Below, in pieces: positions 1,761 to 57,880 of a DNA stretch of 64,000 nt. The stretch covers positions 868,001-932,000 of the forward strand of contig NZ_PJCH01000005.1 of assembly GCF_002943565.1 (NCBI RefSeq). Direction: 5' to 3'. The DNA comes from Hyphococcus luteus. GTDB taxonomy: Bacteria; Pseudomonadota; Alphaproteobacteria; Caulobacterales; Parvularculaceae. Made by a program: the position numbers and the translations under genes. Each line of letters opens with the position of its first letter. The first letter of the stretch is position 1. The notes beneath the pieces are model-generated. The model worked only from the letters and a program-made list of their open reading frames with translations, searched no databases and was not told the DNA's origin.

Positions 1761-4700
1761 CCCCTCTTGAAGAAACCACCAACAACCAGCGCACAGCGGC
1801 GGATCCGGCCCGCTCCGTTTTCGTCATGGCCAATGCAGGCTCGGGCAAGACGCGCGTTCTGACCAACCGCGTGGCGCGGCTCCTCCTCGCCGGATCGCCG
1901 CCGGAAAAGATTCTGTGCATCACCTTCACCAAGGCTGCGGCGGCGGAAATGGCCGAGCGGCTTTTCGAGGTGCTCGGCGCATGGGCGCTCGCCAGCGACG
2001 AGGAGCTGGTTGAGGCGCTCAAAGAACTGGAAGGAAAAGAAGCGACGGAGAAATCCGCCGACGATCTCGCCCATGCGCGCCGGCTGTTCGCGCGCGCGCT
2101 GGAAACGCCGGGCGGGCTGAAGATCCAGACCATTCACTCTTTCTGCGAAAGCGTCTTGCGCCGTTTCCCGATCGAGGCGGGCGCGCCGCCGGGCTTTGTC
2201 GTCGCCGAGGACGCGCAGGCCATGGCGCTCCTGAATGACGCGCTCGACTGGCTCGCCGCGAAGGCGCGCGAGGACGCGGCGCTCGCCGCCGATTTCGATC
2301 TTCTGTCGCTTAAACGCAACGAGCAGGATCTGCGCGCGCTGCTGATCTCCGCCTCGAAGACGCCGGACGATCTGGAAGAGGCCGCGGCGATGCTGGCGAA
2401 GGCGCTCGCCGTCAATCCGAACGAGACGCCAGGGACCATCAAGCGCAAATTCTTGGGCGAGATTTCCGTCGACGATCTGCGCCGCGCCCATGACGGGCTC
2501 GCCGCGGAAGGCAAGCAGCCCCAGGCGGCGGCGAAACGCCTGTCGGCGTTTTTCACGGCGGCCAATGATGAGGAGCGCTGGGACGCGCTCGTCAAAACCT
2601 TTCTGGTGGCCGACCAGTCGAAGACCGTGGACCGCATCGCCTCGAAAGCGACGGACAAGCACGATCCCTGGGTCGGGCCTTATGTGAACACGCTGAAAGA
2701 GCTCGTTTTCGACGAGGTTCAGGCGCTTCGGGCCCAGGCGATTTACGAAGATACGCTGGCCTTGAACCGTCTCGCCGGCGCGTTGCGCGCCCGCTACGCC
2801 GAAACGAAAGCGGCGCGGGCGATGCTCGATTTCGACGATTTGATCGCCCGCGCGGACAGTCTTTTCCGGCGTGTCGAAGCGCAATGGATCATGTACAAGC
2901 TCGACTATGGCATCGATCACATATTGATCGACGAGGCGCAGGACACCTCGCCCGGCCAATGGGCGGTGGTTGAAAATCTGTTTACAGACTATTTCTCCGG
3001 CGCCGGCGCGCGCGACGATCTGCGCAGCTTTTTCGCCGTCGGCGACATGAAGCAGTCGATCTATTCCTTTCAGGGCGCCGATGTCAGCCTCTTCAAGGAA
3101 AAGGAGCACGATCTCGGCGAACGGCTGGCGAAAGTCACGGCCTACGCCAACATTCCGCTGACCCTTTCCTTCCGCACGACCGAGCCGGTGCTGTCCTTCG
3201 TGGATGCGGCCTTCGCCGACCGCGACGCGGCGGAGGGACTGGGCGAAGAGGGCGATCTTCTCCACGGCGTCTGCCGCGAAGGCGTCGCGGGGCTGGTCGA
3301 ACTCTGGCCGCTGACGCCGCGCCCGGACAAGCTGGCGGTCAACCCCTGGGACGCGCCGGTGGACGCGCCTGAAGCCGATCATCCGGTGCGGGTCCTGTGC
3401 GACCGCGTGGCGGCGACCGTCAAGGGCTGGCTCGACCGCAAGGAGCATCTGGAATCGCGCGAACGCCCGATCCGCCCCGGCGACGTCATGATCCTGGTGC
3501 AAAGCCGGGGCGCGCTTTTCCGCGACGTCATCCAGCGCCTCTCCGCGGCGGGCGTCCCCGTGGCGGGGCCCGACCGGCTGAAGCTCGCCGAGGACCCGGC
3601 GGTGGAGGATTTGCTCTCCTATGCGCGGTTCGCCCTGTCGCAGGATGACGATCTTTCGCTCGCGGAAATCCTCAAAAGCCCGCTTTTCGGTTTCGACGAC
3701 GACGCCGATCTCTTTCCACTCGGTTTTGAGCGCGGGAAAAATCAGTCCCTGTGGTCTTCCTTGCGCGAACGCGCCGGCGAAAGAAACCACTGGAAAAAAG
3801 CGGCGGATGAAATCGCCGAAGCGCGGGCCCTGGCGCGCGCGCAAGGGCCCTATGCGTTCTTCTCGCACATTCTCGAAACCGGTTCGCCTTCCGGACGCAA
3901 ACGGTTCTTCGCGCGGCTCGGCGAAGCCTCGTCGGACGCCATTGCCGAACTGTTGCGTCAGACGCTCGATTTCGAAAACGGCGCCCCGCGCAGTCTTCGC
4001 GAATTCGTCGCCTGGTTCGAAGCGGCCTCGGGCGACATCAAGCGCGAAATGGAGCGCGAAAACACATCCGTCCGTGTGATGACGGTGCACGGCGCCAAGG
4101 GGCTGGAGGCGGACATCGTGTTCCTGCTCGACGCCCATCGCGACGTGGATTTGAAAACCATCGGCCCGCTTTTGCCGCCGCCGCGCGAGGCGGGCCTGCC
4201 GGAAAACCTGTCGCTCCTCGCCTGGTCGAAAGCGGGCGACGCCATGCTCACCGAAACCGCGCGGGCGGAGAAAACGCGCCTTGCCTTCGAGGAATACCGG
4301 CGCCTATTTTACGTCGCCGCGACGCGCGCGCGCGATCGGCTATACATTTGCGGCGTCGAACAGGGCAACAAGAGCGATCCGCAGGCGAAAGCCACAGGCG
4401 TCAAGTCCTGGCATTCGCTGGCGATCGATGCGTTCGGGCGGCTGGGCGGCGTCGAGGCCGGCGAAGAGCCCTTCTGGAACGGCGGAACCGAGCCCGCCTT
4501 GCGGCTTTCCTGTCCCCAGACAGCGCCGGTTGAAAAAGAAGATCACGCTGCAGCGCCCGCCGCCGCCGGCGCGCCGCCATGGCTTTATAAAGAAGCGCCG
4601 AAGGAAGCGCCGCCCCTGCGCTTCGCGCCGTCGAAACTCGAAGGCGAGGAAGAAAACGAATGGCGCGGCGAAGCCCAAGGCGCGGCCTATTCGCCGGTTG

Positions 4701-5233
4701 CTGGCGGCGATAGATATTTCCGCGGGCGCACCTTGCACCGGCTTCTGGAGCTATTGCCCGATGTCGCGCCGGCGGCGCGCGAGGCGGCGGCGGACCGTCT
4801 GCTCGAAAGGCTCGCGCCGGAGATCGCCGAAGACGAACGCGCGCGCTGGCGCGAGGAAGTGATGCGTGTGCTGAGCGATCCGCAATTCGCGGACGTGTTC
4901 GCGCCGGGCTCCATGGCCGAAACGCCGATTGCGGGCCGGCCCAGCGGCGCGCCGGAAAGCTTTATGCTGAACGGGCAAATCGACCGGCTCGCGGTCAGCG
5001 ACGCGCGCGTTCTGGTTGTGGATTACAAAACCAATCGCCCGCCGCCGGCGCGCGCCGAAGACGCCGACCCCGCCTATATCGCTCAGCTTGCGGCCTATCG
5101 CGCGCTATTGCAGGAAATCTATCCGGGTCGTGAGATCGTCTGCGCCTTGCTCTGGACCTATGACGCAAGACTCATGGACATACCGGCCGAAATGCTCGAT
5201 CACGCTTTTGCGCGTTTAAAACTTGCGGGTTGA
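1757..5233 (+). CDS. addA: Double-strand break repair helicase-nuclease AddA
   Basis: 1158 residues, normal for alphaproteobacterial AddA. UvrD/Rep-type superfamily 1 helicase: Walker A ANAGSGKT at residues 25-32, Walker [14 protein letters not shown] near 390-402, and the late motif [17 protein letters not shown]-terminal RecB-type nuclease domain carries [11 protein letters not shown] near residue 1086. Together with AddB it unwinds and degrades double-strand ends to produce recombinogenic single strands. The ATG overlaps the addB stop. The gene runs directly toward trxA, with 53 bases between its stop and the trxA ATG, so all three may share a transcript. Large open frames on the opposite strand here are coding shadows. 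Confidence 0.97.
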
Positions 5234-5805: not shown

Positions 5806-7105
5806 AACCGTTCTCGCTTAGGATCTCGCCCGCCAGATAGAGCGAGCCGCTGATGAGCAATCTCGGCGGCTCGTTTTGCGTTTCCGAGCAGGCCTTTTTC
5901 ATGGCCTCTTCAAGAGAGGCGCACGGCTCCACCGTCAGCCCGCCTTTCTTCGCCGCGGCGGCGACCTCTTTTGGCGCGAGGACGCCGTCATGATCGGCGG
6001 CGACGCAGAACACCTTGCGGGCGAGCCCGGCGAAGGGCGCGAAATAGCCCGCGGCGTCCTTGTTTGCCTGCATCCCGGAAATCATCACGAGCGGTTTCGG
6101 ACTGCGCGCCTCGAGATCGGCCATCAGCGCCGAAATGGCGCGGCCTGCATGAGGGTTGTGCCCGCCGTCGAGCCAGACTTCCGGCTCTTCGCCGAGCGCG
6201 CCGCGCGCCAGATCGATGAGCGGGCCCCTGGTCAGGCGCTGCATGCGCGCCGGCCAGCTTGCGTTCACGAGCCCTTTCGAAAGCGTTGCATTGTCGAGTT
6301 TCAGGTCCGCCGCGCGGATGGCGGCGACGGTCGTGCCGGCGTTTTCGATCTGGTGCGCGCCGGGCAGGCGGGGCGGGTCGAGATCGCACAGCCCGTCATC
6401 GTCCTGATAGATAAGCCGTCCGTGCTCGGAATGAACGCTCCATTGTTCGCCATAGGCGTGGATGTCGGCGCCGATTTTCTGTGCGTGCGATTGCAGCGCC
6501 GCCATGGCGTCCGGGCCTTGCGGGGAAATCACCGCCGGTGCGCCGCGGCGGAAAATGCCCGCTTTTTCGCCGGCGACTTCGAGCAGCGTGTCGCCCAGAA
6601 ACGCCTGATGATCGAGATCGACGGGCGTGACGATAGCGGCGAGTGGCGCTTCCATGACATTGGTGGCGTCGAGACGCCCGCCTAAGCCCACTTCGATGAC
6701 GGCGTAATCCGCTTTCGTTTCGGCGAAGGCGAGGAACGCCGCGCAGGTCGTCGTTTCGAAATAGGTGAGCATGTCCTCGCCCATGGCCGCGTCGACGCGT
6801 TTCAGCGCATCGATCAGCGCGTCGTCGGAGATTTCTTTTCCGGCGACGAGGATGCGCTCGTTGAACCTGACGAGATGCGGCGAGGTGTAGACGTGAACCG
6901 ACTTGCCGGCGGCGTCTAAAATTGCGCGCAGGAAAGCGACGGTCGAGCCTTTGCCGTTGGTGCCCGCCACATGGAAAAACGGCGGCAGTTTCTTTTGCGG
7001 ATCGCCGAGACGCGCGAGCGCCCGTTTGATGCGGTCGAGCGATAAATCGATAACAATCGGGCGGCGGTTCGCGATTTCCGCGAGCACGGTTTCAACGTCG
7101 CTCAC
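5804..7105 (-). CDS. folC: Bifunctional dihydrofolate synthase / folylpolyglutamate synthase
   Basis: 433 residues, Mur-ligase fold. The ATP-binding loop GTNGKGST is at residues 48-55, followed by a central domain with the DGGHNPHAGR motif. The enzyme joins glutamate to dihydropteroate and extends folate polyglutamate tails. The start is GTG at 7103-7105, with a GGAAG ribosome-binding site seven bases upstream. It follows accD on the same strand with a 39-base gap; accD-folC is conserved across alphaproteobacteria and indicates one operon with trpA upstream. Confidence 0.96.
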   Translation of the reverse strand: MSDVETVLAEIANRRPIVIDLSLDRIKRALARLGDPQKKLPPFFHVAGTNGKGSTVAFLRAILDAAGKSVHVYTSPHLVRFNERILVAGKEISDDALIDALKRVDAAMGEDMLTYFETTTCAAFLAFAETKADYAVIEVGLGGRLDATNVMEAPLAAIVTPVDLDHQAFLGDTLLEVAGEKAGIFRRGAPAVISPQGPDAMAALQSHAQKIGADIHAYGEQWSVHSEHGRLIYQDDDGLCDLDPPRLPGAHQIENAGTTVAAIRAADLKLDNATLSKGLVNASWPARMQRLTRGPLIDLARGALGEEPEVWLDGGHNPHAGRAISALMADLEARSPKPLVMISGMQANKDAAGYFAPFAGLARKVFCVAADHDGVLAPKEVAAAAKKGGLTVEPCASLEEAMKKACSETQNEPPRLLISGSLYLAGEILSENG

Positions 7106-7144
7106 GCGCGTCTTCCTTTGTCCAAGATGAGGGGAGTGTTGCGC

Positions 7145-8128
7145 CTATTCCGCGGCCTTGTCGAGCGGCGGCGCCTTCTTGGCGTCTTTGGTCTTCGCCG
7201 CCGGTTTCTTGTTTGCGTTCGGGGCGGCCTCGGGCTTATGCGTATCGGCGGCGGCGGGCAGCGCGGCGGCGGCCTGACGGCGCTCCTTGATCAGGAGGCG
7301 GATAAGCTTCGACAGGGTGGATTTCATGTCGGCGCGGCTGACCACCATGTCGACCATGCCTTTTTCCAGGAGGAATTCGGCGCGCTGGAAACCCTCAGGC
7401 AGTTTCTCGCGGATCGTCTGTTCGATGACGCGGGGGCCTGCAAAGCCGATCAGCGCGCCCGGTTCGGCGAGATTGACATCGCCCAGCATGGCGTAAGACG
7501 CGGTGACGCCGCCCGTCGTCGGATTGGTGAGAAAGACGATGTAAGGAAGGCCCGCCTCCTTCACCATCTGCACGGCGATGGTGGTGCGCGGCATTTGCAT
7601 CAGGGAGAGAATGCCTTCCTGCATGCGCGCGCCGCCGGAGGCGGCGAAGACGACCAGAGGCGCGCGTTTTTCGACCGCGACCTCGGCGGCTTTCAGCATC
7701 GCTTCGCCGAGCGCCATGCCCATGGAGCCGCCCATGAATTTGAAATTCTGGATCGCCGCCACGACGCCGACGCCGTCAACCGTTCCGTATGCGGCGCGCA
7801 TGGCGTCCTGCTGGCCGGTCTTGCGGCGGTTTTCTTTCAGCCGGTCCGCATATTTTTTCTCGTCGCGGAATTTTAAAGGGTCGGTGACCGGGTCGGGCAA
7901 CTCGATCTCTTCATAGGCGCCGTCATCGTAGAGGAGCGCCAGACGTTCCGACGGCGCGAGCGCGAGATGATGGTCGCAGGACGGGCAGACCTGATGCGCC
8001 GCATCGAGGTCGCGCTGGAATATCATCTCGCCGCAGCCCGGACATTTGCTCCACAGCGTATCGGAGCTGTCGTCCTTGGGTTTGAAGATGTTCTTTATGC
8101 CCGGAGGGATGTTGGAGAGCCAGCTCAT
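7145..8128 (-). CDS. accD: Acetyl-CoA carboxylase carboxyltransferase subunit beta
   Basis: 327 residues. The N-terminal zinc ribbon has cysteines 29, 32, 48 and 51 (CPxC...CPSC), followed by the carboxyltransferase core with [12 protein letters not shown] and the oxyanion-hole region [10 protein letters not shown]. It works with AccA to move carboxyl from carboxybiotin to acetyl-CoA, the first step of fatty acid synthesis. After residue ~285 there is a low-complexity tail rich in Ala, Lys and Pro, longer than the E. coli protein but common in alphaproteobacteria. It lies between trpA (58-base gap) and folC (39-base gap). Confidence 0.97.
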
Positions 8129-48554: not shown

Positions 48555-49709
48555 TCAGGCCTGCGACAAGCTAAGCGAGGCGAGAGATCCATGCAGCTTG
48601 GGGACGTACGCCTTAGTCGAACCGTCTTCCAAGCGTAAGATAATATAGTTGTCGCGTTCTGTAAGCGCTGCTTCCATGTTTTCCAGCCACTCCCGGCTTT
48701 CGAGACGCCCGACATCTGGACTGACCGCATCCAGAAGGCGCATGGCGATGTGCGAGCGTCCTTTCAGGATTTCGCGAAAGATACTGCTGACATCGTCATT
48801 TTTTGGCAGCGCGCGATAAGCCTGCATAATCCATGCGGCGCCGAAGTTATAAAATACATCCGTCACATGATCCGGGCCCAATTTTTCGGCTGTTCCGGAT
48901 GTCGGAACATACTGCTTCCTTTGCAGCATCATGCCAATATAGTCGCTGCTTCTATACGTGTCAGGCATCAATGTTAGCGCCTCAATTGCATCAATTGCGG
49001 TTATGTCGGACGCCCAAGCGCTCAATAAGTGGCCGATCTGATACAGATCCGGCTCGAGCAGGCCTTTTTCGACGCCATGGTTCTGAGGCAGGTTTTTGCG
49101 GATATAGGTGAGGCCGGTCTCGTCATTATTCGACCGTTTAAGGCTTTGTTGCAAAATGATTGGCGCATAGAGATCTTTCTTGGACTGGCCGATGGCTGCT
49201 TGAAGCTTTTCCAATTCGTCGCAAAGCGATTCTCTGGGTTTGCTGAACTGCTCCTCAGTTAATTCAATTAAGCCGTCGAGATCGAAATTGCCATCTTCGT
49301 CTTCAATCTGGTGTATCTTGGAAGAAACCAAAGAGTAGATAACATCGCTGACAACGTTGCCGGTCAGAAAAGTCGCATGCAATGTATTTAAGATGCGCAG
49401 GAAGACTTCGAGTGCTCCCTCGACCTTTTCTTCTGCGAAGCGGAGCGTGTCGATATCGCCCTGCCTTTCCGTAATCTCGCCGCCGATGACCGCTGCGGCT
49501 AACGCGACGATCACAGATAGGGGCACTCCGATAAGGAAACTGTAGAATACGCCGGCATCGCCCGCCAATTGCAGGAAGGTCTCGTCATTATTTTGGATTT
49601 TCTCCCGCAAAAGCGGCACCAGTTCGAAAAGGCCGACATAGCCGCATACAAATAGAAGGATGACCGAAATGGCCAAAATACTCAGAAAAATTTTTCTTTG
49701 AAATGACAT
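48555..49709 (-). CDS. Membrane-anchored protein of unknown function in a low-GC islet
   Basis: 384 residues from ATG 49709; a TTG at 49748 would add 13 residues. Two membrane helices (residues ~7-28 and ~53-78, separated by an acidic 25-residue loop), then a ~300-residue cytoplasmic part rich in helices with no motif I know. GC is about 47-52% in the three 60-base stretches I counted, well below the ~64% around it, and codon use is relaxed. This points to horizontal acquisition. A TTGACA (49789-49784 on minus) with a weak -10 lies upstream. Function open. Confidence 0.8.
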   Translation of the reverse strand: MSFQRKIFLSILAISVILLFVCGYVGLFELVPLLREKIQNNDETFLQLAGDAGVFYSFLIGVPLSVIVALAAAVIGGEITERQGDIDTLRFAEEKVEGALEVFLRILNTLHATFLTGNVVSDVIYSLVSSKIHQIEDEDGNFDLDGLIELTEEQFSKPRESLCDELEKLQAAIGQSKKDLYAPIILQQSLKRSNNDETGLTYIRKNLPQNHGVEKGLLEPDLYQIGHLLSAWASDITAIDAIEALTLMPDTYRSSDYIGMMLQRKQYVPTSGTAEKLGPDHVTDVFYNFGAAWIMQAYRALPKNDDVSSIFREILKGRSHIAMRLLDAVSPDVGRLESREWLENMEAALTERDNYIILRLEDGSTKAYVPKLHGSLASLSLSQA

Positions 49710-49856
49710 GCCCCACACGCCCCCGCGCTGTTGTTCTTTGACGAACAAGTTTGATGGTAAAACAAAGCGTGGGCTTAAAGGTCTGTCAAGCGACAGAAAT
49801 ATTTAGGTCGCCGTGTTCGATTGCAGTCGCATTGGAACTCAAACAGCTGCAGTGTC

Positions 49857-50686: not shown

Positions 50687-51565
50687 ATGCGTCTGTTTTT
50701 ATTGATCTTTCTTCTTGGGTTCGCCGCCGCGCCGTCGGCATTGGCGGAAGTCCAGGTCGGCCGGCCTTATGTGCTGCCGCATTCGCAGGTCATTCCATTC
50801 ACCGCGAAAACAAACGGCGTCGATTACGAGCTCTATGTCAGCCTTCCGAAAGGCTATCCGTCATCGGATAAACCCTATCCGCTGCTCGTCACGCTCGATG
50901 CCGATTACCAGTTCGCCATCGCCTCGAACCAGATCGCGCGGCTCGCCAGCCACAACGGACAGGCGCCGGAGATGATCGTCGTCTCCATCGGCTACGCCTA
51001 TGACCCGGACGACAAGCACGCCTATCGTCTGAACCGGACGCGGGACTACACGCCGGCGCATGCGGACAAGGGCGGATACGGCCCGGCCTATCAAAAATTC
51101 TCCGGCGGCGGGCCGGCTTTTGCGGCGGTCATTGAAAAAGAAATTCTTCCGTTGCTTGGCGCGCGCTATCGCATTGACGAGGAGGAACGCGTTTTCATCG
51201 GCCATTCCTATGGCGGGCTTTTCGGCGCGTATCTGCTTTTGGAAAAGCCGGCGCTTTTCAAGCGCTATATCCTGGTCAGCCCGTCGCTCTGGTATAATGA
51301 GAAAATGATGATCAAGGCGGCGGAAAAGGCCCGCCCGTTCAAGCGCAAAACATATGTCTATATGGGCGTCGGCGCCTGGGAGAACCAGGCGGGGCTATAC
51401 ATGATGGTCGATGATTTGAACGCTTTCGCCGCGGCGCTCAAAGCCCGCGACGATCCCAATCTCGTCATGGAAACGCGCGTCTTCGAAGACGAGACCCACG
51501 CCAGCATCTATCCGGCGGTTCTCTCCACAGGGATGCGCCATCTTTATCGCGAGATGAACGACTAG
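50687..51565 (+). CDS. Exported esterase, alpha/beta-hydrolase (esterase D type)
   Basis: 292 residues with a signal peptide (residues 1-20, PSALAE) and a CAGGAGT site before ATG 50687. The nucleophile elbow is VFIGHSYGGLFG; the central part has LPKGYPSSDKPYPLLVTLDADYQFA, and a C-terminal ETHASIYPAVLSTG supplies the catalytic histidine. The layout matches the putative esterase family that includes IroE/Fes-like trilactone hydrolases and S-formylglutathione hydrolase. The signal peptide favours a periplasmic substrate such as a siderophore ester; there are no siderophore genes nearby. Confidence 0.88.
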   Translation: MRLFLLIFLLGFAAAPSALAEVQVGRPYVLPHSQVIPFTAKTNGVDYELYVSLPKGYPSSDKPYPLLVTLDADYQFAIASNQIARLASHNGQAPEMIVVSIGYAYDPDDKHAYRLNRTRDYTPAHADKGGYGPAYQKFSGGGPAFAAVIEKEILPLLGARYRIDEEERVFIGHSYGGLFGAYLLLEKPALFKRYILVSPSLWYNEKMMIKAAEKARPFKRKTYVYMGVGAWENQAGLYMMVDDLNAFAAALKARDDPNLVMETRVFEDETHASIYPAVLSTGMRHLYREMND

Positions 51566-52425
51566 AGAGCTTTGTCCGCCGCGGCGTCTTTCGCCGCCGG
51601 CATGTCGGGGGCGGGCGGGCGCGGGACGCCCGCGCCTTTGGGCTTTCTGAAAGGATCGAAGACCAGATTGCCGAAGGTGTCGGCCTTCATCGCTTCCGGC
51701 CCCTCGACCCCGAAGCGCTCGTCCTCGCGCAGATTTTCCGGCCCGGAAAACGTGCCGAACATCTGGTCCCAGATCGTAAAGGCCGTGCCGAAATTCGAAC
51801 ATTGCCTGGAAAGGTCTGTGGAATGGTGCTGGCGATGCACGGCCGGCGTCGTGATGATCCGTGACAGGATGATATCGGCTTTGCGCGGCAGCGCGACATT
51901 GGCGTGGGTGAAGGCGTTCGCAATGACGTGGATGAGATAGATCAGCAAGATGCCTTCCGGCGGGACGCCGAGCGCGAAAACGACGGCGACTTCGATCATC
52001 GCCCGGAACAGCGTCTCAAAGGGGTGAAAGCGCAGGGAAGTGCTGACATCGATATTAATATCGGTGTGATGGGCCCGGTGCGTACGCCACAGGACATACC
52101 ATTGATGCAGCATGCGGTGCTGTCCGTAGGCCATTAGGTCGAGCGCGAGGACCGAAATGATGAGCCTGGCGGAAAACGGAAGCCCGAGCTGGTTCATCAG
52201 TCCGACGCCGTTCGCCTCCGCCGCCGTTGCAGCGCCAAAGGCGGCGATCGCGGGGATGGCGCTCAAAAGGATCGTCCCATAGACCGTCATGGAGGCGTTG
52301 CGCAGCCAGCGCGCCAGATTGATCTTGAGGCCCTTGCGCCATGGCAGCGCGCACTCGATCGCGACCGCCGCTGCAAGGACGATAAGGAGGTAGTAAACGC
52401 CGCCGAGCCCCTTGACGAATTCCAT
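51562..52425 (-). CDS. Sterol desaturase / fatty acid hydroxylase family membrane protein
   Basis: 287 residues from ATG 52425 (AGAGGA upstream). About four membrane helices. The di-iron histidine clusters are GQHRMLHQWY, WRTHRAHHTD and VHRQHHSTDL. The family hydroxylates or desaturates sterols, carotenoids or fatty acyl chains. A Pro/Ala-rich tail (APDMPAAKDAAADKAL) closes the protein. Convergent four-base overlap with the esterase. Substrate unknown; no sterol or hopanoid genes nearby. Confidence 0.9.
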   Translation of the reverse strand: MEFVKGLGGVYYLLIVLAAAVAIECALPWRKGLKINLARWLRNASMTVYGTILLSAIPAIAAFGAATAAEANGVGLMNQLGLPFSARLIISVLALDLMAYGQHRMLHQWYVLWRTHRAHHTDINIDVSTSLRFHPFETLFRAMIEVAVVFALGVPPEGILLIYLIHVIANAFTHANVALPRKADIILSRIITTPAVHRQHHSTDLSRQCSNFGTAFTIWDQMFGTFSGPENLREDERFGVEGPEAMKADTFGNLVFDPFRKPKGAGVPRPPAPDMPAAKDAAADKAL

Positions 52426-52621
52426 GGTTTTTTCCTCTTGAGGGAGTTTCGGGAATTGCGCGCCTCCATGCAAGCCGTCCGCCAGCGCGAGGAATCCCGG
52501 GCGCTTATGCGCGCAGGGCGTGCGGTGCGCTGCAGCGGCGCAGCCTGCGGCTGCACGCTCTTGTGTAAGGTTACGGTCCGATTTACCCTTTCCTGTCTAC
52601 GGGACGAAGGGAGAGCGGACG

Positions 52622-52786
52622 ATGAGACTTACTGCATTGGTCGGGGGCATGATCCTCTTGGCGCAACCGGCGCTGGCGACATCGCCGAATTCCGTGCCGG
52701 AAATGGATGTCGGCGCCGGGTTCGCCGCCATCGCGCTTCTTGCAGGCGCTGCTGCGCTCATTCGCGAACGCAGCCGCCGGAAGTAA
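52622..52786 (+). CDS. VPEMD-CTERM micro-precursor 1 (exosortase E substrate)
   Basis: 54 residues with GGGAGAG before ATG 52622. Signal peptide to about residue 19 (QPALA), then five residues (TSPNS), the motif VPEMD at 25-29, one membrane segment (GAGFAAIALLAGAAALI) and the basic tail RERSRRK. This is the tripartite PEP-CTERM-type sorting signal, in its VPEID form, with almost no passenger. First of three tandem paralogues; a GC-rich inverted-repeat region lies upstream (52525-52560). Residues 30-54 are 89% identical in DNA to copy 2. Confidence 0.88.
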   Translation: MRLTALVGGMILLAQPALATSPNSVPEMDVGAGFAAIALLAGAAALIRERSRRK

Positions 52787-52826
52787 CTGTCCGCATATTT
52801 TTGCTGCTGAAGAGAGGGCGATTGCT

Positions 52827-52991
52827 ATGAAACGTATTGTGATGACTGCAATGTTTGCGTTGACCGCATCTCCGGTGCTTGCGGCCGAACCGTTGCGTGT
52901 TCCTGAGATGGATATCGGCGCCGGGTTCGCCGCCATTGCGCTTCTTGCGGGCGCCGCCGCGCTCATTCGCGAACGCGGCCGCCGTAAATAA
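52827..52991 (+). CDS. VPEMD-CTERM micro-precursor 2
   Basis: 54 residues. Signal peptide (MKRIVMTAMFALTASPVLA), about five residues (AEPLR), VPEMD at residues 25-29, the same membrane segment as copy 1 and the tail RERGRRK. Lies 40 bases after copy 1, with GAGAGGG before the ATG. The C-terminal half differs from copy 1 in only two residues, while the pentapeptide before the motif is entirely different. This contrast suggests the short stretch is the functional, variable part. Confidence 0.88.
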   Translation: MKRIVMTAMFALTASPVLAAEPLRVPEMDIGAGFAAIALLAGAAALIRERGRRK

Positions 52992-53029
52992 CCGATCGAT
53001 CTTTGTAACTGAAAGAGGGGGTAATACCT

Positions 53030-53191
53030 ATGAAACATGCACTTTTGACCGCCGCCGTAACCTTGATGGCGACGCCGGCTTTCGCGGGCAGCAACTACGC
53101 TGTTCCTGAAATGGACGCCGGCGCAGGCGTTGCGGCAATTGCACTGCTCGTGGGGATCGGCGCGATCCTTCGCGAGAAGATGAAAAAATAA
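53030..53191 (+). CDS. VPEMD-CTERM micro-precursor 3
   Basis: 53 residues, short enough to be missed by automatic calling. GAGGGGG lies just upstream of ATG 53030. Signal peptide (MKHALLTAAVTLMATPAFA), GSNYA, VPEMD at residues 25-29, membrane segment GAGVAAIALLVGIGAIL and tail REKMKK. More diverged than copies 1 and 2 but with identical spacing of every element. Ends 20 bases before a terminator. Confidence 0.87.
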   Translation: MKHALLTAAVTLMATPAFAGSNYAVPEMDAGAGVAAIALLVGIGAILREKMKK

Positions 53192-53210
53192 CCGGCCTTT
53201 TCGCCGGAAG

Positions 53211-53239
53211 GAAAAGCCGGCCTTCGGGGCCGGTTTTTT
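53211..53239 (+). terminator. Intrinsic terminator after the three VPEMD genes
   Basis: CCGGCC (53217-53222) and GGCCGG (53228-53233) with a TTCGG loop, preceded by AAAAG and followed by TTTTTT. It separates the substrate genes from xrtE, so the protease is expressed from its own promoter or by read-through. Confidence 0.88.
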
Positions 53240-53333
53240 CATGCCTGGAATTCAGAGGCACGCGGCGCAAAGCTTGCTTGCCATTGACCCTGGCCGCCGG
53301 TGGAGGAACCTTAAGGCCGGGGCGAGGAGAGGC

Positions 53334-54986
53334 ATGAAGCAGACGCCGGCAGCAGAAAACGAGAGTCCGGGTGCGGGACGGAGGCCAGGGCCGCTTGTCT
53401 GGCGCGCGGGTTTTCTTGGCTGTCTCGCCGTTCTCGAGCTCCCCTTCGTCGCTTTTCTTTACAATCCGACGGCGATCAGCGCGGCGCCGGCCTGGCGCGA
53501 GGCGCATATGGTGATGCGCGAAGCGGTGCCGTTCACGCTGTTCTTCCTGGCTGCGCTGGCGCTTTTGTTTACGCCGCAGCGCCTTGAGGCCTGGCGCGAA
53601 TGGGCGGCCTCGGCCGGGACGCATTCATGGCGTCTGCCGCTTATCGTTAACCTTGCCCTGATTACGGGGCTCGCCGCGGCGACGCTTGTCTTCAATCGTT
53701 ATGACGGCGATGCGAACGGCCCGCCATGGGGGCTTTTTGCTTTGTGGAGCGCCGCCGCGGTCGCCGCCTATGGCGCGCTGGCGCTCGCCGCCGCGCCGCT
53801 TTCTTTCTGGCGCGGTTTCCTCGACCGCGAACGCGCGCGCCTCGCGCTCGCCGGTTTCGCCGCGATGATGATCGAGGCGGCGGCGGTTCTGTCGCGCCAG
53901 TCCTGGAGCCTTTTGTCCGACGCAACCTTTCATTTTTCCGCGGCGATCCTGCGGCTTTATGAAAGCGATGTCGCGACGGTTCCCGAGAGCCGCGTCATCG
54001 GCGTGAGCGGCTTTAAGGTCAATATCGCATCGGCCTGTTCCGGCTATGAAGGCATCGGCCTCGTCGTCACGTTTTTGATGATTTACTTCTGGGTGTTCCG
54101 GCGCTCATTGAAGTTTCCCAATGTATTCCTCGTGCTGCCTATTGGCGTCGCGGCGATCTGGGTTTTGAACTGCGTGCGGATCGCCATGCTGGTCAGCCTC
54201 GGCGCCCATGTCTCGCCGGAAATTGCGATCACCGGATTTCACAGCCAGGCCGGCTGGATGATGTTCCTTGTGGTGACGATTGCGATCATGGCGGCGACGC
54301 ACCGGCTTTCCTTTTTCCACCGGCTGGATGGGCGAGAGGAGGCGAGCGTTTCGCCCGCCGTGAAACTGGCGGCGGCCCTGCTCGCGCCGTTTCTCGCCAT
54401 GACCGCGGCGACAATCCTCGGTTCGGCCTTTTCCGCCGAAGGCCATTACTGGGTCTATGGCATGCGCGTCGCGGCGCTGCTGCTTGCGCTCTTTGCGTTC
54501 TGGCGCGTCTATAAGGCGATGGACTGGCGCGTCGGCGTTGAGCCTGTCCTATGGGGAGTGGTTGTGGGCGCCTTATGGATCGCAACCGATCCGGGCCTCA
54601 AGGAGGAAAGCGCGCTGGGGCTGTGGCTCGCCGGGTTGCCGCCGGCGGCGCTCGTCCTGTGGCTCGCCATGCGGCTTCTCGGGACGGTGCTGCTTGTGCC
54701 GCTGGCCGAAGAGCTCGCCTTTCGCGGCTATGTGCACCGCAAGCTGATCGCCGAGAAATTCGAAACCGTCGCGGAAAACGCTTTTGCGTGGAAGGCCTTT
54801 CTCATCAGCTCAGGCCTGTTCGCGCTTCTCCATGAGCGCTGGCTCGCCGGCGCATTCGCGGGCGCGGTTTTCGCCGTCGCCATGTATCGCTCCGGCAAGC
54901 TTGCGGGCGCCGTCGCCGCGCATATGGCGGCGAACGCCGTCATCGCGGCGTGGGCGATCGTCTTCAAACAGTGGACGTTGTTGTAA
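53334..54986 (+). CDS. xrtE: Exosortase E fused to a CAAX-type (CPBP) protease, VPEID-CTERM system
   Basis: 550 residues from ATG 53334 (GAGGAGA upstream). About fifteen membrane helices in two modules. Module 1 (to ~residue 330) is the exosortase: catalytic Cys235 in ASACSGYEGIGL, Arg282 in NCVRIAML and His303 in GFHSQAGW. Module 2 (~380-550) is a CPBP intramembrane protease: E459 E460 and R464 in AEELAFRGY, H500 in FALLHERW, H530 and N534 in HMAANAV. All catalytic residues of both are present. This fusion is the described exosortase E/protease family (TIGR04162). The likely substrates are the three adjacent VPEMD precursors. Ends convergently with efp. Confidence 0.93.
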   Translation: MKQTPAAENESPGAGRRPGPLVWRAGFLGCLAVLELPFVAFLYNPTAISAAPAWREAHMVMREAVPFTLFFLAALALLFTPQRLEAWREWAASAGTHSWRLPLIVNLALITGLAAATLVFNRYDGDANGPPWGLFALWSAAAVAAYGALALAAAPLSFWRGFLDRERARLALAGFAAMMIEAAAVLSRQSWSLLSDATFHFSAAILRLYESDVATVPESRVIGVSGFKVNIASACSGYEGIGLVVTFLMIYFWVFRRSLKFPNVFLVLPIGVAAIWVLNCVRIAMLVSLGAHVSPEIAITGFHSQAGWMMFLVVTIAIMAATHRLSFFHRLDGREEASVSPAVKLAAALLAPFLAMTAATILGSAFSAEGHYWVYGMRVAALLLALFAFWRVYKAMDWRVGVEPVLWGVVVGALWIATDPGLKEESALGLWLAGLPPAALVLWLAMRLLGTVLLVPLAEELAFRGYVHRKLIAEKFETVAENAFAWKAFLISSGLFALLHERWLAGAFAGAVFAVAMYRSGKLAGAVAAHMAANAVIAAWAIVFKQWTLL

Positions 54987-54996
54987 CAGGCGAGCG

Positions 54997-55560
54997 CTAG
55001 TCGGCGCGCTTCACATATTCCATCGTTTCGGTGTTGACGACGATCTTCTCGCCGACAGTCATGTAAGGCGGGATCATGATCCTCAGCCCATTGTCGGCGA
55101 TGGCGGGCTTGTAGGAGGACGACGCGGTCTGACCTTTCACCGTCGGTTCGGTTTCCACCACCTCCAGCGTCACCTGTTCGGGAAGCTGCACGCCGATGGG
55201 GCGGCCTTCATGGCTTTCGACAACCACGGCCATGCCGTCCTGAAGGAACGCCACGCGCTCGCCGATCATGTCTTTGGGGATCGAGATCTGCTCATAGCTT
55301 TCAGAATCCATGAACACCAGCATGTCGCCTTCGGCGTAAAGATAGGTGTGGTCTTTCTGCTCAAGGCGCACGCGCTCGATCGTCTCGGCGGCGCGGAAGC
55401 GTTCGTTCAGCTTGCGTCCGTCTTCGAGGTTTTTGAGTTCGACCTGGGCATAGGCAGGGCCCTTGCCGGGCTTCACCGCGTTCACCTTGACCGCGGCCCA
55501 CAGGCCCCCCTGATGTTCGATGACATTGCCGGGACGGATTTCGTTGCCGTTGATTTTCAT
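54997..55560 (-). CDS. efp: Elongation factor P
   Basis: 187 residues, three OB-like beta-barrel domains as usual. The modification loop is [10 protein letters not shown] with the candidate modified lysine at residue 33; the C-terminal part has [28 protein letters not shown]. It relieves ribosome stalling at polyproline. The lysine implies an EpmA-type system, which is not in the window. Proline-rich proteins here (DUF3035, the VPEMD leaders) would not obviously need it. Confidence 0.98.
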
Positions 55561-55666
55561 GGGGTCGCCTTGCCTTCGGTCTTGTTTTTCGGGCCTTGGT
55601 TGTCAGGGAAGGCGCGCCTTTACCAGCCGCGAGCCGGACTGGCAAGGACGGCAAAGAAGCCCGGGG

Positions 55667-57880
55667 CTACATCCGGAAGGTGTGGCCGAGCCGCAGAGCG
55701 AGGCTGGAGCGCCGGGAGGTGAAATCGCGCGGGAAATCCGTGCGCTCGATCAGCGCCGTATGGCCGATGGACAGGAAGATTTCCCGCTCCGGCATCGGCT
55801 CCCAGCTGAAGCGGGAGAAAAAGGTGAAGGCCTCGGAAATATTGTCGTACTGGATTTCCGTCTTGATGGTCATGTCGGGGGTGAACGCGATGGTCGAATT
55901 GACCGAGGCGATATGAACGCCGATCTCGCCCGAGGGCAGGTCGAAATCGGAATATTCATATCCCGCCGCAAGTTCGAAATACCGGCTCGGGCGCAGGCTG
56001 AGTTCGCTGCGGATGTTCAGATAATCGCCGTCATAGATGCCGCCCCAGCGCGCCTCGACTTCCGCCCCGACCATGCGGGCGTTGGTGGCCGAGGCCTCGA
56101 CCTCGTACTGGCTCCAGCGATAGTCGCCCGGCGCAACCGGAACCTCGCCCGCAATGGAAAACGGGTCGACGATGTCGACGAAGCCATTTTCGTAGCGCAG
56201 CCAGAGCTCGTCCCCGGGATTGTTGGAGCCGCCCATCCAGGCGCCAAAAAACCGGTCGAGCGTGCGCCCGTTGCGGTCGGTGATGATGTTTGCAAAGCCG
56301 CCGGTCTCGGCTTCGCGAATGAAGCCGCCCGAAGGCCGGTATTTTCGCCAGCCATTGGCGTTGTACCGTCGGATGTCGGTGCGGTTCACGAAGCCGAGCT
56401 TCGGCGCGTAATCCGCGCCGATGTCGCGGAAGCGGAAGGTTCCGTTCCAGGTCTGGCTGCGATAGGCGGTTTCATGGGCGAGCATGTGGTCGCTCTCGCC
56501 GCCGGTGAAGCTGTGCGTGTAGGCGGTGTCGGCGAAAAGGGTCCCGTCGCCGAAGAGATTGAGTTTTTTGAACTGGAAGTCGGCGCCGGCGACGGTGCTC
56601 TCGTCTTCGCCGGTGGGATCGCCATGGGTGAAAACGAGCCCGAGTTTCGAGGCGGAAAGAACGGGCACGGACAAACGCGCCGACGACAGGAACTGGCCGT
56701 CGACGCCGATCGCCTCCGACGCGCTCGTGCGCGCCGAAATCGCGCCGATATTGGCGGGGCCGAGCTTGCCGCTTAGTTTCGCGCCGGCGAGGAGGTCGAC
56801 GGGCTGGCCGTCGACAATGCCGATATTGCGGGAGAAGAACGGCATGCCGTTGACGAGATCCTGGAATATCCGCCCGCCGAATTCGAAAACCTGCGCGTCC
56901 TGCAAGAAGAAATCGCGGGTCTCGGGAAAGAACAGCGAAAAGCGTCCCGTATTGACCTGGCGGTCGTCGAGTTGGGTGTCGGAAAAATCCGTATTGACGG
57001 TGAGCGAGCCGGTCAGCGACGGCGTAATCTTGTAAAAGGCGTTGCCGCTCGGATTGAAATCGTAATCCTTATCGGCGGTTCGCCAGTCATAGGCGGCGGC
57101 CCCGGTCACATAAGCCTGGAGTTCAAGGCCGATCCCGCTTTCGACGTCGCGCACGCCGGCGAGGCGGCCCGGATTGGTCATGTCGATGCGTCCGCGACTG
57201 CGGTCGATATTCGACCAGCGGATTTCCTCGTTCTTGCGCCGGATATTGCGGACGATCTGCATGTTCCATTCTTCGAGGTTAGGGTCGAAGGAAATGGACT
57301 GAAAAGGAATGACGATTTCCGTCATCCAGCCGTCGTCGGCGAGACGGGATTCGGCGCGCCAGATCGTGTTCCACTGATTTTGATAGTTGCTGTTGTTTTC
57401 GATCAGCGCGTCGGCGCGCGCGCCATTGGCGTTGACGCCGAAGAAATAGGCGTCGCGAAAGGAGCCGAAAGTGTCGAGATAGACGCGCACGGCGTCGTCG
57501 TCGCGCAGGATGAAATCGCGCTGCATTTGCGAGCGGCGGATCAGCTCCGGCTCGCTGTCGTAATTATAGATGCCGATATAAAGGTTGCGCTCGTCAAAAA
57601 GAACATAGGCCTTGGTGGGCTCCGTCGGCGCGGCGCCCTCCACCGGGTCGACCTGGTAAAATTCCGTAATCGGCTGCGCCCGGCGCCAGACCGGGTCGGA
57701 CAAATCGCCGTCGATGACGGGCGCGTCTTCATGGGCGATGCGCACGGCCTGAACGCATGGCGTGAAATTCGCGAAATTGCGGTCCGAAGACCGCCGAACG
57801 CTTGTGTCCTGTGCAGCGCCTGCCGGCCCGTTGGCGCAAAGCGCGGCAAAGGCGGTGAGCCAAAATATCTGTCGGCGCAT
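55667..57880 (-). CDS. Exported DUF5916-type protein with an N-terminal CBM9-like domain
   Basis: 737 residues. Signal peptide (residues 1-23, GPAGAAQ). The N-terminal ~200 residues follow the CBM9-like plan (DAPVIDGDLSDPVWRRAQPITEF, KAYVLFDERNLYIGIYNYD, DDDAVRVYLDTFGSFRDAYFFGVNANGA). The C-terminal ~500 residues alternate in beta pattern (FSLFFPETRDFFLQDAQVFEFG, DFSDTQLDDRQVNTGRF, LALRLGHTFRM) and end like an outer-membrane barrel. This matches DUF5916, thought to be an outer-membrane carbohydrate-related protein. Monocistronic. Substrate unknown. Confidence 0.88.
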   Translation of the reverse strand: MRRQIFWLTAFAALCANGPAGAAQDTSVRRSSDRNFANFTPCVQAVRIAHEDAPVIDGDLSDPVWRRAQPITEFYQVDPVEGAAPTEPTKAYVLFDERNLYIGIYNYDSEPELIRRSQMQRDFILRDDDAVRVYLDTFGSFRDAYFFGVNANGARADALIENNSNYQNQWNTIWRAESRLADDGWMTEIVIPFQSISFDPNLEEWNMQIVRNIRRKNEEIRWSNIDRSRGRIDMTNPGRLAGVRDVESGIGLELQAYVTGAAAYDWRTADKDYDFNPSGNAFYKITPSLTGSLTVNTDFSDTQLDDRQVNTGRFSLFFPETRDFFLQDAQVFEFGGRIFQDLVNGMPFFSRNIGIVDGQPVDLLAGAKLSGKLGPANIGAISARTSASEAIGVDGQFLSSARLSVPVLSASKLGLVFTHGDPTGEDESTVAGADFQFKKLNLFGDGTLFADTAYTHSFTGGESDHMLAHETAYRSQTWNGTFRFRDIGADYAPKLGFVNRTDIRRYNANGWRKYRPSGGFIREAETGGFANIITDRNGRTLDRFFGAWMGGSNNPGDELWLRYENGFVDIVDPFSIAGEVPVAPGDYRWSQYEVEASATNARMVGAEVEARWGGIYDGDYLNIRSELSLRPSRYFELAAGYEYSDFDLPSGEIGVHIASVNSTIAFTPDMTIKTEIQYDNISEAFTFFSRFSWEPMPEREIFLSIGHTALIERTDFPRDFTSRRSSLALRLGHTFRM

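Follow-up and report, generated by a model that had tools for sequence, protein, structure and literature searches.

What becomes of three precursors of only 53 or 54 residues that are encoded beside an exosortase, and to what molecule might the enzyme join them? To our knowledge, the acceptor to which bacterial exosortases join their substrates is not settled. The question is raised by a locus in the window, that is, the whole stretch of 64,000 nucleotides that was analysed, which belongs to a host genome of 4.92 Mb (16 contigs, 99.2% complete). Between positions 51562 and 54986 the window presents a gene of the FA_hydroxylase family on the minus strand, a gap of 196 bp, three micro-ORFs, a terminator and xrtE, in that order:

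51562..52425, minus strand: membrane protein of the FA_hydroxylase family, 287 aa counted from the ATG at 52425, a start picked by eye; assigned on the basis of PF04116, His boxes, linkage and co-occurrence
52426..52621, no strand: divergent intergenic region of 196 bp, presumed to hold promoters for both sides
52622..52786, plus strand: micro-substrate P1, 54 aa, core TSPNS, flanked by the signal peptide and VPEMD
52827..52991, plus strand: micro-substrate P2, 54 aa, core AEPLR
53030..53191, plus strand: micro-substrate P3, 53 aa, core GSNYA
53210..53240, plus strand: intrinsic terminator in the gap between the micro-genes and xrtE, assigned from the folding z-score and the kept hairpin and T-run
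53334..54986, plus strand: xrtE, 550 aa, exosortase domain (approximately aa 39-323) fused to a CPBP/Rce1-like glutamic protease (approximately aa 443-536)

The coordinates and lengths originally given for P1, P2, P3 and xrtE were reproduced on recomputation. The divergent FA_hydroxylase-family gene at 51562-52425 had been omitted from the original prediction. No sigma-70 consensus site was found in the region 51500-55700.

XrtE matched TIGR04162 (exosortase E/protease) at 271.2 bits (E 2e-80) against a curated cutoff of 150, which bears out the exosortase E identity proposed for it before any database search. PF09721 and PF02517 were both matched, as was TIGR04178, the model of the exosortase/archaeosortase superfamily. 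All nine residues that had been named as catalytic (C235, R282, H303, E459, E460, R464, H500, H530 and N534) were found at those numbers, and a single chain holds both the exosortase Cys/Arg/His and the CPBP motifs EExxxR, H and HxxxN, the combination expected of a member of this family. The nearest relative of the enzyme, at locus L007, is 82% identical. The nearest one that carries a public title, at 82% identity, lies in a MAG titled Alphaproteobacteria bacterium Co_bin.76; the other ten loci recovered by the same search are mostly titled Marinicaulis sp. In the relative at L008, XrtE is without H530 and the hydroxylase is without one box His. The predicted structure of XrtE (pLDDT 59.9, pTM 0.47) was too poor for use, and a sequence search of the PDB with XrtE returned no match.

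The three tandem precursors were confirmed as described, each carrying a signal peptide, a five-residue core, VPEMD, a helix and a basic tail. A scan of the 64 kb for ORFs of this architecture (PE motif, helix, basic tail and possible start) returned P1, P2 and P3 only, which argues that they are more than chance occurrences. The ATG of each is preceded by a purine-rich, Shine-Dalgarno-like stretch. Scored against TIGR04161 (VPEID-CTERM, curated cutoff 33), P1 reached 34.0 bits, P2 27.0 bits and P3 20.4 bits; the expected membership was thus upheld for P1, whereas P2 and P3 fell below the cutoff even though TIGR04161 was the best family for both. Since full-length alignment to P1 gives 65% identity for P2 and 49% for P3, both look like homologues lying beyond the reach of the model.

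Comparison with L007 points to purifying selection on the protein. In the C-terminal codons pN was 0.02 for both P1 and P3, far below a pS of 0.28 for P1 (30 codons) and 0.46 for P3 (29 codons); P2 has no counterpart in L007. For the cores of P1 and P3, pN was 0.24 and 0.51 and pS 0.54 and 0.90, over five codons each. The five-residue cores appear to be poorly held, and counts from five codons are too small to say more. Among all 38 micro-substrates from 12 loci of the family, mean pairwise identity was higher in the C-terminal signal (77%) than in the signal peptide (45%), and 36 different cores were present with a median length of 6 aa. Two cores were identical between close relatives, so not every core drifts. 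A micro-substrate type with a core of 25-27 residues and two cysteines is shared by L008, L010, L011 and L014.

A terminator had also been proposed ahead of xrtE. The hairpin at 53210-53240 is followed by a run of six U, and folding of 53185-53245 gives -31.2 kcal/mol (z -3.5); this, together with the repeated placement of the hairpin in relatives, substantiates the proposal. At ten of 11 loci, the window included, the last micro-gene is followed by a strong hairpin and then by four or more T, and the eleventh (L008) has a similar stem followed by three T. The stems vary in sequence among loci. Judged from sequence, a terminator at this position would fit an abundant substrate and a scarce enzyme.

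Whether the enzyme and the micro-proteins serve one another exclusively was assessed at two scales. Within the 99.2%-complete genome, searches for further substrates with a P1-P3 profile and with TIGR04161 gave nothing above noise (next E-values 1.1 and 0.83), nor did any larger substrate elsewhere in the genome rise above it. Across 62 genomes of the Parvularculaceae, clear micro-gene matches were found in 11, every one of which carries xrtE, and the 50 genomes lacking xrtE yielded one borderline match (G549, E 7e-4, within a 518-aa frame). Because the micro-gene profile was built from xrtE-carrying genomes of the family, only the absence of micro-genes from genomes lacking xrtE constitutes a test. 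Within this family, and with the one borderline exception, VPEID-CTERM is restricted to carriers of exosortase E. That the locus encodes a dedicated enzyme-substrate system is close to certain. The original prediction of a self-contained unit stands insofar as the unit is dedicated to its own substrates, but it does not consist of enzyme and substrates alone, since in this lineage the hydroxylase gene appears to belong to it too.

The smallness of the substrates and their clustering with the enzyme had been singled out as special, a view that did not survive a wider survey. TIGR04162 was matched in 4 of 385 genomes sampled from the class and in 12 of the 62 in the family. For the order the figure was 17 of 299, with 16 of these over the cutoff, and for the order of G331 it was 31 of 292; each count takes in the query genome. 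Using an automated filter, a short substrate adjoining xrtE was detected at 51 of 58 loci (window's family 12/12, f175 3/5, f55 1/1, f3 0/1, f25 29/31, named plasmids 6/8); the same adjacent micro-genes do therefore occur in other xrtE genomes. The filter misses L047, where a 98-aa ORF with APEID adjoins xrtE, and L207, at a contig end, where a substrate match was found by another search; the figure of 51 is given as the filter returned it. The 58 loci include L116 and L203, which are near-copies. In CP049031 (Rhodobacterales) the 57-aa neighbour of xrtE is already annotated as 'VPEID-CTERM sorting domain-containing protein'. The 51 loci and this public annotation indicate that exosortase E, as a rule, has short substrates of its own encoded next to it.

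Matches to TIGR04161 (E up to 0.01) were present in 43 of 50 xrtE genomes. Those without a match were G579, G678, G406, G497, G651, G052 and G949, among which G579 and G052 carry micro-genes by other tests. Exactly one match was found in 29 of the 31 f25 genomes, with a second, weak one in G880 and none in G949; in G939, also of f25, the match and xrtE lie on different contigs. The tandem array is a trait of the window's family, with two to four micro-genes per locus, and G638 holds eight micro-genes and two copies of xrtE. The kind of system and its small adjacent substrates are already known; what is particular here is the tandem array, the matching position of the terminator in relatives and the link to a hydroxylase.

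The product of the divergent gene scored 97.1 bits against PF04116 (gathering cutoff 31), and its alignment contains the His boxes HxxxH, HxxHH and HxxHH that mark FA_hydroxylase proteins. OlsE is its best named relative in NCBIfam, but a score of 94.3 bits against the cutoff of 475 for the OlsE model (NF052566) means that the linked hydroxylase is not OlsE. The predicted structure had a pLDDT of 69.8. Foldseek comparison of the model with the PDB gave no match at E up to 0.001, and a PDB sequence search with the hydroxylase returned only SCS7, at E-values of 0.3 and 0.6.

A close form of the hydroxylase (at least 262 bits) was present in 11 of the 12 xrtE-carrying genomes of the family. In G678 xrtE is present, running off the contig start, and neither the close hydroxylase nor micro-genes were found. 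The best hydroxylase score among the 50 family genomes lacking xrtE was at most 151 bits, two of these genomes being without any match. Synteny alone as the source of the link was marked down, since the family genomes without xrtE do not have the close form.

Wherever a family locus has intact flanks (12 loci), the hydroxylase adjoins the micro-genes. At L009 each of two successive hydroxylase genes is followed by two micro-genes, and xrtE closes the row; these hydroxylases are sisters in the tree (100/99), having been duplicated together with micro-genes. At L016 an additional micro-gene flanks the hydroxylase on its opposite side, and in G559 a second hydroxylase is paired with a micro-gene close to the end of a different contig. 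In the distant family f55, represented by one genome (G052) in its order sample and one locus (L055), a micro-gene is directly followed by a hydroxylase and two more micro-genes precede a second hydroxylase. The cassette hydroxylases of f55 and of the window's family group against 18 sampled paralogues (97/92) in a tree in which f55 branches long and the paralogues come from the window's family only. In a quick tree, in which f55 is again a long branch, its xrtE does not group with the family xrtE. No hydroxylase was found within approximately 6 kb of xrtE at the f25, f175, f3 or plasmid loci, and the hydroxylase therefore cannot be a general requirement of exosortase E.

From the genes present, their conserved motifs, the signs of selection, the exclusivity of the pairing and the linkage we infer that XrtE cuts the micropeptides after export and passes them to an acceptor in the envelope, probably a hydroxylase-modified lipid, a reading to which we assign a probability of roughly 0.4 as a whole. 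The micro-proteins would be exported by Sec and would then lose the signal peptide, with VPEMD, helix and basic tail holding them in the inner membrane. The exosortase domain (Cys235/Arg282/His303) would cut at or near VPE by way of an acyl-enzyme intermediate; that XrtE cleaves the three micro-proteins is very probable. The outside peptide, in this genome five residues plus the motif, would be transferred to an envelope molecule, where an amine or another nucleophile would receive it, and the fused CPBP domain may clear the hydrophobic remnant. In this lineage the acceptor would probably be a membrane lipid modified by the adjoining hydroxylase, giving a small peptide-capped lipid.

A lipid acceptor connected with the hydroxylase is put forward tentatively. 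It is suggested by the linked gene and by two precedents: artA adjoins a lipid-synthesis gene in Methanosarcina, and homologous genes were shown in Haloferax to take part in ArtA-dependent maturation (PMC7157517); and glycerophosphoethanolamine was found attached to a substrate of rhombosortase (PMC6219818). OlsE is reported to modify the ornithine head group (PMC3972451). PF13444, the ornithine-lipid acyltransferase domain, was found in six of 12 xrtE-carrying genomes and ten of 50 genomes lacking xrtE, and is borderline in the present genome (22.6 bits, cutoff 22.4). Ornithine lipid is unlikely as a general acceptor, the domain having gone undetected in half of the xrtE carriers. This distribution and the weak OlsE score make phosphatidylethanolamine or another aminolipid the likelier candidate carrier.

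Other explanations of the locus were weighed. The peptides might anchor or organise extracellular polysaccharide, a role that has been proposed for ordinary PEP-CTERM proteins; XrtE would then join them to a sugar or to a polymer of the surface, and some other job would fall to the hydroxylase. Genes for glycosyltransferases, sugar transferases or polysaccharide lie within 6 kb of xrtE at five of the eight plasmid loci viewed, a sixth has a glycosyltransferase near the edge, and the cores of f25 are rich in Gly, Ser and Trp; stabilisation of EPS has moreover been reported for PEP-CTERM proteins (PMC12188702). No such gene is listed, however, at two of the eight plasmid loci (in a plasmid gene table that is incomplete), polysaccharide proteins were found among none of six scanned neighbours in the window and none of five scanned in L008, L016 and L017, and a core of five residues is small for a polymer linker, all of which leaves this explanation unlikely.

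In agr-like logic a pheromone-processing protease releases a signal peptide, and XrtE could be akin to such a protease, its clipped peptides being released as signals. The exported peptides are short and variable, as signals might be, and the reading was considered on account of two f175 loci, L047 and L049, in which xrtE is preceded on its own strand by histidine kinase and response regulator genes (the pair was confirmed by scan at L047 and assigned by likeness at L049); at L047 the substrate ORF sits between the two-component genes and xrtE. The L047 regulator is, however, nearest to KdpE (216.7 bits, below the cutoff of 325), and the other three f175 loci, inspected by eye, have no two-component pair directly upstream of xrtE. 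Nor does the window's family possess a constant receptor: a kinase of family 2 lies downstream of xrtE at eight of 11 loci (the L008 member was scanned) and is not at the window, L007 or L017. Selection, too, is tighter on the tail than on the core, and release as signals is improbable. That same pattern, with helix and tail the most conserved parts and not the exported core, would suit micro-proteins that are never cut and act as intact membrane peptides or as regulators of XrtE, the hydroxylase being a passenger of synteny. Against this stand the defined exosortase motif and an intact enzyme closely associated with it in most genomes. Passive synteny would predict neither the duplication of the hydroxylase with the micro-genes nor its recurrence in distant f55, and we regard uncut peptides as highly improbable.

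If XrtE does clip the micropeptides and transfer them to a hydroxylase-modified lipid, the product could be an undescribed surface molecule in which the head of the lipid is capped by exosortase E with a peptide of 4 to 27 residues, the tandem micro-genes would encode alternative caps whose sequence changes, and the hydroxylase would point to the acceptor of a bacterial exosortase; this fuller picture is speculative and, taken whole, rather doubtful. The three very short peptides are the only detected substrates and make the system a convenient one for the exosortase acceptor question, and they are so short that mass spectrometry should be able to read the mature product. A lineage-specific gene of a lipid-hydroxylase family, tied to the peptides by co-occurrence and co-duplication, renders that question testable. 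Neither an experimental account of VPEID-CTERM or XrtE nor work tying exosortases to such a hydroxylase was found in the open-access literature, a body from which subscription papers are largely absent.

Several known systems bear comparison with the locus. Exosortase E/VPEID-CTERM (TIGR04162 with TIGR04161) has the same enzyme fusion and a similar short substrate adjoining it. The present locus differs in having three tandem substrate copies (two to four in relatives) with VPEM and not VPEI, two of the three copies under the TIGR04161 cutoff, a terminator before the enzyme and a linked hydroxylase, which was not found near the f25 or plasmid xrtE loci. OlsE (PMC3972451) is the best named relative of that hydroxylase, and PF13444 is not constant in the present genomes. 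MrtJ/JDVT-CTERM (PMC11980579) is a CPBP protease with a single neighbouring target of its own and shares its CPBP chemistry with XrtE; MrtJ is without an exosortase domain, whereas XrtE unites both activities and has several targets here. Archaeosortase A with PssA/PssD (PMC7157517) belongs to the same superfamily (TIGR04178) and likewise has a linked lipid-biosynthesis gene, one that is involved in substrate maturation. That system is archaeal, its substrate is the S-layer and its lipid genes make a head group, whereas the linked gene of the present locus encodes a predicted hydroxylase-family enzyme.

A distinct type of micro-substrate, the short precursor encoded beside the exosortase E gene (xrtE), was found at four loci of the window's own family:

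L008, 5594-5830, two-cysteine micro-substrate
L010, 5184-5414, two-cysteine micro-substrate
L011, 5508-5732, two-cysteine micro-substrate
L014, 5577-5810, two-cysteine micro-substrate

The core of this type is longer and carries two cysteines approximately 20 residues apart, a spacing which suggests a disulphide loop. Two further families, f175 (L048, L050 and L051) and f25 (L053, L054 and L179-L206), possess substrates with glycine-rich, cysteine-bearing or tryptophan-rich runs in the core, which lies between the signal peptide and the PEID motif. Many of the f25 loci place the substrate gene not upstream of xrtE but in convergent orientation to it.

Contig C20 of genome G939 (L199) encodes xrtE with no adjoining substrate; the sole TIGR04161 match in that genome is located on contig C42. 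On contig C4 of genome G587 (L033, L035 and L051), xrtE is carried jointly by two overlapping reading frames.

The xrtE of genome G406 (L018/L046; approximately 7129-8625 in L046) has tyrosine in place of the exosortase cysteine and of the CPBP histidine, and alanine in place of the asparagine of HxxxN. A short reading frame 5' of this gene, inspected by eye, has a C-terminal helix and basic residues but neither a VPE motif nor a clear signal peptide; the two look like a decayed or repurposed pair. Separately, the L008 enzyme (5998-7656) has leucine at the position of H530, and in the hydroxylase of that locus (4037-4870) proline replaces one third-box histidine; each may be a real change or an assembly error.

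Two other genes of the window were considered:

48555-49748, minus strand, 397-aa protein
55667-57880, minus strand, 737-aa protein matching CBM9_1 and DUF5916

Family-model scans gave no convincing match for the former, and a different ORF occupies its position in the locus of the nearest enzyme relative (L007). Both domain matches of the latter, whose gene adjoins that of elongation factor P, scored barely above the cutoffs in the domain-model scan.

At two of the five f175 loci, a two-component pair lies directly 5' of the substrate region and xrtE:

L047, 9050-11256, histidine kinase and response regulator genes
L049, 3968-6132, histidine kinase and response regulator genes

The L047 pair is closest to KdpDE.
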